DNA from: a bacterium
GTDB taxonomy: Bacteria; Cyanobacteriota; Vampirovibrionia; Gastranaerophilales; Gastranaerophilaceae
Direction: 5' to 3'
DNA length: 32,462 nucleotides
Assembly (NCBI GenBank): GCA_014803505.1
Contig: JAAVBM010000111.1
Coordinates: 1 to 32,462, forward strand
This document shows positions 20,738 through 22,527 of the stretch, piece after piece. How positions within the stretch are numbered: position 1 is the first letter of the stretch; each line of letters begins with the position of its first letter. Below the pieces are notes generated by a model. It made no database searches and was not told where the DNA came from. It was given only the letters and a program-made list of their open reading frames with translations. The position numbers were made by a program, and so were the translations under genes.

Positions 20738-20776
20738 AAAAAAGACTTGATCATTTGATCAAGTCTTTTTTCTTTC
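20738..20776 (+). terminator. Terminator of tuf
   Basis: A 16-bp stem (20738-20753 with 20756-20771, AAAAAAGACTTGATCA) is followed by TCTTTCT. It is symmetric enough to also end the minus-strand transcript from the small genes at 20840-21235. Confidence 0.9.
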
Positions 20777-20839: not shown

Positions 20840-21016
20840 TTAACCTAACAAAACTTCTAAAAGCTTAGCATTAGTTTGAGCCCTGCGAGAATTTAACAAA
20901 TATTTTTCGACATTTGCTCTAATTTCTTTAGAGTCATTGTCTATATATTTAACCTCATTATCGAGCATTTTTACATAGTCGTAAACTGTAATCATTTGAT
21001 ATGCGTTATTTTTCAT
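20840..21016 (-). CDS. 58-aa protein with MITVYDY motif and ...LLG tail
   Basis: Starts MKNNAYQMITVYDYVKML and ends QTNAKLLEVLLG. It belongs with its neighbours: MITVYDYVKML matches MITVNEYAESLK and LITVKDYVKTLK of the 99-aa protein at 21425-21724, and the tail TNAKLLEVLLG matches SSNAEILDALLG of the ribbon-helix-helix protein just upstream. That two-sided similarity is the evidence that it is a gene. GGTGGGGAA precedes the ATG (as TGGGGAA does at the 99-aa gene). It starts 30 bases after the ribbon-helix-helix stop, so one transcript is likely. No known function; mostly helical, with no membrane segment. Confidence 0.8.
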   Translation of the reverse strand: MKNNAYQMITVYDYVKMLDNEVKYIDNDSKEIRANVEKYLLNSRRAQTNAKLLEVLLG

Positions 21017-21046
21017 TTCCCCACCAATTTTCTTTATTATTTAGTA

Positions 21047-21235
21047 TTACCCAAGTAAAGCATCTAAAATTTCAGCATTTGAAGAAGCTTTTTGAGTATT
21101 TCTTAATTGACTTCTATACATATATGTTCTTAATGCTTCGCGAATCAATTCAGAACGTGTACGATTTTCTGCATCTGCAACTGAATCGATTTCATCTAAA
21201 AATTTTTCGGGCATTGAAATTAATACTCTAGCCAT
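21047..21235 (-). CDS. Ribbon-helix-helix (CopG/ParD-like) DNA-binding protein
   Basis: 62 aa. Residues 2-45 have the RHH pattern: strand RVLISMP, helix EKFLDEIDSVADAE, turn NRTRSELIREALRTYM. Dimeric RHH proteins bind DNA through the paired strands and often act as antitoxins or autoregulators. After the RHH core comes a short linker and the tail SSNAEILDALLG, shared with the 58-aa protein encoded next. AGGAG precedes the ATG. The promoter carries the palindrome at 21336-21354. No classic toxin (RelE, ParE, MazF or PIN) is encoded beside it, so a standard toxin-antitoxin label is not supported. Confidence 0.85.
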   Translation of the reverse strand: MARVLISMPEKFLDEIDSVADAENRTRSELIREALRTYMYRSQLRNTQKASSNAEILDALLG

Positions 21236-21274
21236 TGTTTTCTCCTTTAATTTTTCCTAAATATTTATCCCCTG

Positions 21275-21310
21275 ACATATATATAAAGTATTTGTATAAT
21301 AAAAAATTGC
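21275..21310 (-). promoter_or_regulatory. Promoter of the ribbon-helix-helix operon
   Basis: Minus strand: GCAATT (21305-21310) as the -35 position and TATATATA around 21277-21284 as the -10. The centre of the palindrome at 21336-21354 is 38 bases upstream of GCAATT, the same distance as in the promoter of the 99-aa gene. Confidence 0.5.
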
Positions 21311-21335
21311 TATTTTTTAAACAAAAAGTATATAA

Positions 21336-21354
21336 TTGTAATATATGTTTACAA
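21336..21354. promoter_or_regulatory. 19-bp palindrome TTGTAA-N7-TTACAA (small-gene copy 1)
   Basis: Perfect arms with a 7-bp spacer, 100 bases upstream of the ribbon-helix-helix start codon and about 63 bases upstream of its -10. Similar to the sites at 21811-21829 and 4997-5015. Confidence 0.7.
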
Positions 21355-21370
21355 TATAAAATATGCTCAA

Positions 21371-21401
21371 AATAAAAAGGGAACCGTATTTACGGTTCCC
21401 T
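21371..21401 (-). terminator. Terminator of the 99-aa gene
   Basis: An 11-bp GC-containing stem AGGGAACCGTA (21378-21388 with 21391-21401), followed on the minus strand by TTTTTATT. It lies just after the 99-aa gene and upstream of the ribbon-helix-helix promoter, so the two are separate transcription units. Confidence 0.9.
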
Positions 21402-21424
21402 AAATTTTGTATTAGATTTTAAAA

Positions 21425-21724
21425 CTAACCCAAAAGTCTTTCTAAAGTTTGAGCATCTTTTTCAGGTTTAGTTAATTTCTTTTCTATAGTTGATTCAATT
21501 TGGGCTTCTAAAATTTCTTCTAAAGGAGTTACATATCTTTGAGCTTTTAATGTTTTCACATAATCCTTAACAGTAATTAATGATGCTTTTTGTTTTTCAG
21601 CCAATTGGGCTTGAATCTCATGAGCATAATCTTCCGCTCTTAGCATTGGTGATGTATAATAAGCACCGCTTTTTAAAGATTCTGCATATTCATTAACTGT
21701 AATCATGTCATTTTGATATTTCAT
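21425..21724 (-). CDS. 99-aa protein with two ITVxxYxxxLK units and ...LLG tail
   Basis: Not a family I recognise. It contains the same unit twice: MITVNEYAESLKSGAYYTSP near the N-terminus and LITVKDYVKTLKAQRYVTPL near residue 50, each followed by an acidic/amphipathic helix. It ends DAQTLERLLG. The 58-aa protein at 20840-21016 has one unit and the same kind of end, so this looks like an internal duplication within one small-protein family. Soluble, helical, no Cys. GGGGAATTTT precedes the ATG. The promoter carries the 19-bp palindrome; the gene has its own terminator. Confidence 0.8.
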   Translation of the reverse strand: MKYQNDMITVNEYAESLKSGAYYTSPMLRAEDYAHEIQAQLAEKQKASLITVKDYVKTLKAQRYVTPLEEILEAQIESTIEKKLTKPEKDAQTLERLLG

Positions 21725-21810
21725 AAAATTCCCCAGTAATCATCCCTTACACATATATAAAAAAATTATTATCAAAAAAATTGCTAAATTTATATTGAAA
21801 CAATATATAT

Positions 21811-21829
21811 TTGTAATATAACGTTACAA
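21811..21829. promoter_or_regulatory. 19-bp palindrome TTGTAA-N7-TTACAA (small-gene copy 2)
   Basis: Perfect arms, 86 bases upstream of the 99-aa start codon and 38 bases upstream (centre to centre) of a GCAATT box at 21780-21785; TATATAT near 21753-21759 is the likely -10. Spacing matches copy 1. Confidence 0.7.
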
Positions 21830-21897: not shown

Positions 21898-22527
21898 ATG
21901 TTTTTTTTAGCAAGTATTCCGAATACAAATCCAGCATTAGGACCCATTGAAAAAAACAAACAAGCCGTAAGTGTATATGATAGACGTTTAGGGAACGTAC
22001 GCACAGTCATAACAACTCCGGAAAAAGCCGATGAATATATAAAAAAACGCGAAGAACAAGTAACAGCTGCAACAAAAAAAGGATGGGTATTAACGGGAAT
22101 AACAACAGGTTCAGGAGCAATTGTCGGTGCATACTTAAATACATTAATCGACAGAAATAAAGCAAAAAAACTCAACGAACTGGTTGATATTATTAATCCC
22201 GAATACAAAACTGCTTATGATCAAGCTTTTGATGCTCACAAGTCACGCTGGGGAAACACTTATACTTTCAATGATTTAGGTATAAAATCAAATTTATTAG
22301 ACAAAGAAAAATATAAAAATTTCGAATTTGAATTAAGAAGACTATTTTCTTCAGAACTAAACAATTTCAAAAAGGCAGATATAAAAACTGTTACTAAAAA
22401 AGCAATAAAAACTGGTGCAATAACAGGAAGTGTCCTAGCTTTCTGCTTTGGAATTGCGGCACCATATTTAAAAGCAAATAAAGCTGATAGAAAAATAACA
22501 GAAGTTTTCATACACGAAAATAAATAA
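21898..22527 (+). CDS. Two-helix membrane protein, unknown
   Basis: 209 aa, not recognised. Two Gly/Ala-rich hydrophobic segments, about residues 63-85 (WVLTGITTGSGAIVGAYLNTLI) and 168-188 (GAITGSVLAFCFGIAAPYL), bracket a charged middle part containing an aromatic patch (KSRWGNTYTFNDLG). A coiled, charged N-terminal part precedes the first helix. AAGGC precedes the ATG. It stands alone and is followed by its own terminator. Confidence 0.7.
   Translation: MFFLASIPNTNPALGPIEKNKQAVSVYDRRLGNVRTVITTPEKADEYIKKREEQVTAATKKGWVLTGITTGSGAIVGAYLNTLIDRNKAKKLNELVDIINPEYKTAYDQAFDAHKSRWGNTYTFNDLGIKSNLLDKEKYKNFEFELRRLFSSELNNFKKADIKTVTKKAIKTGAITGSVLAFCFGIAAPYLKANKADRKITEVFIHENK

Follow-up and report, generated by a model that had tools for sequence, protein, structure and literature searches.

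Among bacterial proteins, the C-terminal peptide of FtsZ is an example of a short linear docking motif. Among ribbon-helix-helix (RHH) proteins, CdrS is a haloarchaeal regulator (PMC7439475), and in Bacillus subtilis, the small neighbor protein SinI is proposed to disrupt multimers of the regulator SinR (PMC6123443). For the lineage studied here, our literature searches found nothing on RHH proteins in Gastranaerophilales, on CopG or other transcription factors in Melainabacteria, or on promoter motifs in Vampirovibrionia, and for small proteins of Gastranaerophilales, they returned only work on cyanobacterial proteome maps.

The window, the whole stretch of 32,462 nt that we analyzed, comes from a Gastranaerophilaceae genome of 2.26 Mb (128 contigs, 94% complete), and the relatives with informative records are mostly gut or rumen assemblies of Candidatus Gastranaerophilales or Melainabacteria. 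An earlier note, made from the window alone, had pointed to three neighboring minus-strand ORFs encoding proteins of 58, 62, and 99 aa that end in LLEVLLG, ILDALLG, and TLERLLG, respectively, and our analysis bears this out at the sequence level. The 58-aa gene, which we call D (20840..21016, minus strand), lies downstream of the RHH gene and encodes a short motif termed the box here, followed by helix A, helix B, and a C-terminal tail; the 62-aa protein, RHH-A (21047..21235, minus strand), was assigned by Pfam; and the 99-aa protein (21425..21724, minus strand) has three boxes, the middle one degenerate, along with a helix-B-like stretch and the tail. A two-way terminator-like hairpin lies between D and tuf (20738..20771), and since another terminator-like hairpin follows the 3' end of the 99-aa gene (21378..21401, minus strand), the latter is probably on a separate transcript. 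A divergent 209-aa ORF (21898-22527, plus strand), which had no notable match in Pfam or PADLOC, shares an intergenic stretch with the 99-aa gene.

The 62-aa protein had been read as an RHH protein, and it indeed matches RHH_1 (PF01402) with 36.7 bits against a curated cut-off of 20.5 (E 3.5e-9, Pfam), as expected of a member of the RHH_1/CopG core profile, while the NCBIfam models aCcr1, NikR, and CdrS match it below their cut-offs. At least one RHH relative was found in 140 of 146 genomes of the bacterial family (E <= 0.01), mostly two to four per genome and three in the window's own, and the RHH profile matched 219 of 240 sampled genomes of the class, the window's own family included (E <= 1e-5). 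The pN/pS of RHH-A is 0.13 (16 sequences). The best of its three PDB matches is the antitoxin EndoAI (4me7, E 6.1e-9), a similarity limited to the core that would suit a toxin-antitoxin module or its remnant. However, we consider such a module very improbable, since the RHH family is present in nearly all genomes of the bacterial family, a scan of viral contigs gave one short match, and neither the neighboring ORFs nor family searches revealed a toxin family or a toxin gene adjacent to RHH-A as in a type II system. PADLOC likewise returned 0 hits for four proteins of the locus, in keeping with the earlier remark that no recognizable toxin is present.

Is the 58-aa ORF a gene at all? It has no Pfam family above cut-off and no NCBIfam or PADLOC match, as would be expected if it were not a gene and its similarities were due to chance. 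This explanation is hardly credible given a pN/pS of 0.25 (91 pairs from 14 orthologues, last 52 codons) and conserved synteny. Along the gene, pN/pS falls to 0.13 over the last 14 codons, which include the tail; the box region has 0.26, and the stretch separating the two has 0.35. By this measure, D is under purifying selection that is strongest in the tail. The orthologues of D start from a few to about 75 nt after the RHH gene. An RHH gene was found within the fetched stretch of 29 of 41 named loci, with tuf beyond it in 21 of these 29, and no RHH gene was found in the fetched stretch of the other 12, some of which end at contig ends. A pattern search recovered D in 36 of 53 loci, a count that misses L005 and L008 though both have D, and the D-family profile matched 121 of 241 genomes, in some possibly through the membrane protein alone.

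Profile comparisons indicate where D came from. The D orthologues of genus g38 have an RHH core together with a NAKIVEALL tail, and even with the tail cut, they match the RHH family in hhalign with an E of 2.8e-8, the best of 60 column shuffles reaching 5.9e-4. D orthologues of other genera that lack the tail match the RHH core with an E of 7e-6 (best of 60 shuffles, 0.015), and the window-type 58-aa family, taken whole, matches RHH with an E of 3.6e-6 (best of 100 shuffles, 1.9e-3). Thus, the 58-aa family has a profile similarity to RHH beyond that of shuffled columns, but in the window-type D, this similarity is carried by the C-terminal part only, since cutting the tail leaves no significant similarity to RHH (E 0.039; best shuffle 0.0053). 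Pfam assigns no RHH family to the 58-aa protein, which does not pass as a member of the RHH_1/CopG core, and there is none among the matches displayed for the 30 members of alignment A1 (25 of 32 families). Taken together, the series of orthologues and the constant operon place, rather than the window sequence alone, make it well supported that D is a tandem offshoot of RHH-A in which, in the window's genus, the DNA-binding beta-strand and the greater part of helix A have disappeared. It is equally well supported, on the same alignments, that D has retained helix B and the tail and carries the box at its N-terminus.

Structure prediction agrees with this picture. The AlphaFold model of the 58-aa protein (pLDDT 80, pTM 0.40) has an extended start and helices at residues 11-21 and 27-57, the second of which extends into the tail, and the model of the g38 form (pLDDT 67) has a low-confidence N-terminus followed by helices at residues 30-38 and 45-74. 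Both models fit a strand-helix-helix order. However, the 58-aa model matched nothing in the PDB by Foldseek, no match of the g38 model reached E <= 0.001, and searches of PDB profiles with the D families gave nothing credible; their best match, calbindin (E 0.19), was judged to be due to chance.

The tail itself was examined in RHH-A (SSNAEILDALLG, 21050..21085, minus strand), in the 58-aa protein (TNAKLLEVLLG, 20843..20875, minus strand), where it falls in the most constrained part, and in the 99-aa protein (DAQTLERLLG, 21428..21457, minus strand), a relative of which has NAQLLESLLA. In an alignment of 16 hand-chosen RHH sequences, A50, N53, A54, L57, L60, and L61 of RHH-A are invariant. The tail nevertheless varies among RHH members, reading NAEILEEILN in the third copy of the window's genome and NAELIDAMLG in L055, and class-level relatives retain forms such as NAELIEALL and SAEILESLL, while several lack it. 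Outside the RHH family, it is rare: among 697 distinct C-termini of ORFs of at least 100 aa in the fetched loci, a set that excludes RHH and includes spurious ORFs, the tail pattern occurred once, in a relative of the 99-aa protein. Since the tail is recognizable in class-level RHH relatives, it belongs to the RHH protein and predates the loss of the core in D. Outside g1 and g38, the D proteins of the aligned genera have no tail and thus cannot depend on one.

These alignments bear on what the earlier note had made of the tail. Relatives carrying it on both RHH and ITV-type proteins were found, as expected from that note. However, the view that the tail argues for a shared partner over ordinary homology is not supported: judged from the alignments, the NAxxLExLL tail, strongly conserved in the RHH family, is inherited within it by ordinary homology, and some orthologues of the 58-aa protein still possess the rest of the RHH core. 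A different explanation would be that the tail is a C-terminal degradation signal by which three short-lived proteins are fed to a protease such as ClpXP, and the LLA and LLG ends do resemble the LAA end of ssrA. We find this improbable because the conservation spans about 12 residues, N, A, and E among them, many RHH homologues end in LLD, LLE, LLK, or LLS, and the tail is modeled as part of a long helix.

The 99-aa protein is related to D, as the profile of the 58-aa family scores 26.6 bits against it and at most 10.8 bits in 1,000 shuffles. The earlier count of one ITV unit in the 58-aa protein and two in the 99-aa protein was right for the clear ones, which in the latter are box 1 (DMITVNEYAESL, 21674..21709, minus strand) and box 3 (LITVKDYVKTL, 21548..21580, minus strand), both aligned with relatives, but it missed a degenerate box 2 (MLRAEDYAHEI, 21614..21646, minus strand) that aligns with MITAADYAKSL in a relative. 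When the 99-aa protein was used as the query, only its own genome was matched among 146 (E <= 0.01). Counting that of the window, the fetched loci contain six members of this type, in which the pattern picks out two or three boxes about 20 residues apart; one of them (L152) lacks the tail, and in three loci (L145, L146, and L150), the gene lies directly upstream of RHH-A. No convincing family was found for the 58-aa and 99-aa proteins in Pfam, NCBIfam, PHROGs, or PADLOC. The best match, obtained with a relative of the 99-aa protein, was phrog_2066 (E 0.001), a family without known function.

The ITV unit is real, and the alignments place it as one form of a wider family of boxes, which the earlier note had missed, roughly YxM[ST][ST][LIV]xEY[FLV]. 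In the 58-aa protein, the alignments place the box at residues 6-20 (YQMITVYDYVKMLDN, 20957..21001, minus strand), and by eye, some form of it is present in all 26 D-type sequences of alignment A4. One early box pattern excluded serine after Met and says little on box number. The D profile also matched the interior of large ORFs that encode a protein of about 600-790 aa. In the window's genome, this membrane protein has hydrophobic segments at residues 7-25 and 344-362 and a box near residue 610, and because of this layout, the box is predicted to be in a cytoplasmic linker. Its gene was located at L136:1024-2976 (minus strand), the own-genome copy being in L184, and the protein has a conserved C-terminal stretch; the gene adjoins what we take to be a gene with an Era-like start and another for a sugar-binding lipoprotein. 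No Pfam family was assigned to P0001, a relative of this membrane protein.

A homologue of the membrane protein was found in 24 of 28 genomes queried. Across the 14 homologues with the strongest whole-protein matches, chosen without the box pattern, mean identity is 52% over the 15 box columns, compared to 15% just before them, 22% just after, and 29% overall, and equally conserved stretches are limited to the N-terminal region, the surroundings of residue 399, and the C-terminal region. When regions were instead selected with the box pattern, the figures were 58% versus 8-13%, a result inflated by that selection, as is the E of 2.3e-14 between D and such regions. We rejected any similarity of D to the membrane protein past the box, as the stretch after it gave an E of 0.11. 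Conservation within this poorly conserved linker is thus confined to the box, an island that, in sequence, looks like a docking motif. The idea of a shared partner appears to fit the box better than the tail because the box recurs, as an island of conservation, in a membrane protein that is unrelated in other respects. By pattern, the box is present in 13 of the 24 homologues, and G020 has a further, degenerate one that emerged from the alignment. D is present in 12 of these 14 genomes (none was found in G045 and G035) and in one of the 10 genomes without a box in the membrane protein (G009), its absence in G002, G012, G037, and G040 resting on the orthologue search and fetched loci. This co-occurrence tracks phylogeny and is no independent evidence.

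The same island in the membrane protein, together with the range of one to three boxes per protein and the location of box genes away from RHH in 12 of 41 named loci (some ending at contig ends), would also suit an alternative in which the box docks to an unrelated hub, such as one of cell division, a chaperone, or a protease. D and the 99-aa protein would then be adaptors or competitors, and the RHH protein would regulate their genes without binding to them. We give this an appreciable chance but on the whole doubt it, since a pure adaptor would account neither for the RHH ancestry of D nor for the persistence of helix B and the tail. A solo box gene elsewhere in the window's genome (in L072, C128:12000-17000) faces another gene, which appears to resemble clpB.

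RHH and ITV genes mostly have one common promoter architecture, judged from their upstream sequences, a feature that the earlier note had overlooked. A promoter-like element, GCAATTTTT-N14-TTTATATA, was located by genome pattern counts before both RHH-A (21280..21310, minus strand) and the 99-aa gene (21754..21784, minus strand). TATATAC, a candidate -10 box or operator, lies 17 nt upstream of the first (21328..21334, minus strand), and in the promoter comparison, TATATAT lies 18 nt upstream of the second (21803..21809, minus strand). An inverted repeat, TTGTAA-N7-TTACAA, is upstream of both RHH-A (21336..21354) and the 99-aa gene (21811..21829), and TTGTAA-N16-TATACT can be read as an ordinary sigma-70 promoter. 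More widely, TATATA[CT] precedes the element at a distance of 7 or 17-18 nt, spacings about one helical turn apart, in 25 of 26 ITV, 48 of 62 RHH-A, 8 of 18 other RHH, and 13 of 34 unclassed promoters, the last of which include at least six RHH-A promoters (L005, L006, L034, L046, L050, and L055). This count supersedes one of TATATAC with too narrow a spacing (16 of 81 RHH and 21 of 26 ITV promoters). None was found at these spacings at eight other element sites of the window's genome, which has 11 sites in all (10 with N14 and one with N13) and none of the reversed pattern. All 146 genomes of the family have at least one site, while reversed matches are rare. The element was rejected as an RHH operator, since it precedes unrelated genes too and is found in G025 and G060, where no RHH gene was detected. 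Its nearly fixed spacing may instead mark an undescribed class of sigma factor.

How might these parts act together? The explanation that we favor, tentatively and with a little less than even confidence, is that the small proteins modulate the RHH regulator through mixed assembly, while the box docks to a partner in common with the membrane protein. RHH-A is a small DNA-binding regulator that probably controls both its own promoter and the promoters of the relatives that bear boxes. We infer that D and the 99-aa protein join it through helix B and the tail, so that its binding to DNA would be weakened or redirected, in the way that SinI acts on SinR. The box would dock to a partner that the membrane protein, too, contacts through its cytoplasmic linker; this partner may be RHH-A itself, and the state of the envelope could alter the amount of free regulator. 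In favor of this explanation are the orthologue series with its synteny, the order of elements in the 58-aa model, the constraint on the tail, the box island in the membrane protein, and the TATATA[CT] sites. Against it stand the loss of RHH similarity when the tail of the window-type family is cut, the Foldseek results, the genera in which D has no tail, the genomes in which D and the box do not go together (G009, G045, and G035) or the box is degenerate (G020), and the occurrence of the promoter element before unrelated genes and in genomes without detected RHH. A more elaborate version, which we regard as rather unlikely, is a two-module code between envelope and transcription, in which proteins with one, two, or three boxes would compete with the one-box membrane protein for a common partner, the tail would admit the small proteins to RHH complexes, and the membrane protein would set the amount of free regulator.

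If modulation by mixed assembly is correct, the locus would encode an RHH regulator alongside decayed relatives that are its putative antagonists, and small proteins and a membrane protein would have a new docking motif in common, in a lineage for which metagenomes are the main source. Since both kinds of protein carry the box, gene control may be connected to the cell envelope. The box offers a concrete bait for its partner, and the common promoter architecture offers a testable regulon.

Compared to described systems, RHH-A possesses the same RHH core as the RHH_1/CopG regulators EndoAI, NikR, haloarchaeal CdrS, and aCcr1. Unlike these, it has a conserved C-terminal NAxxLExLL tail, no toxin partner was found for it, it is near-universal in its bacterial family, and it is accompanied by truncated tandem relatives that carry the box. 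The box resembles the C-terminal peptide of FtsZ in being short and conserved while the linker around it is not well conserved, and to our knowledge, its sequence is unlike any known bacterial docking motif. The folds of SinI and SinR are not known to be related to those of D and RHH-A. The likeness is that of a small neighbor protein beside a DNA-binding regulator, and antagonism at our locus is suggested by analogy. The two systems differ in that the small protein here descends from the RHH regulator itself.
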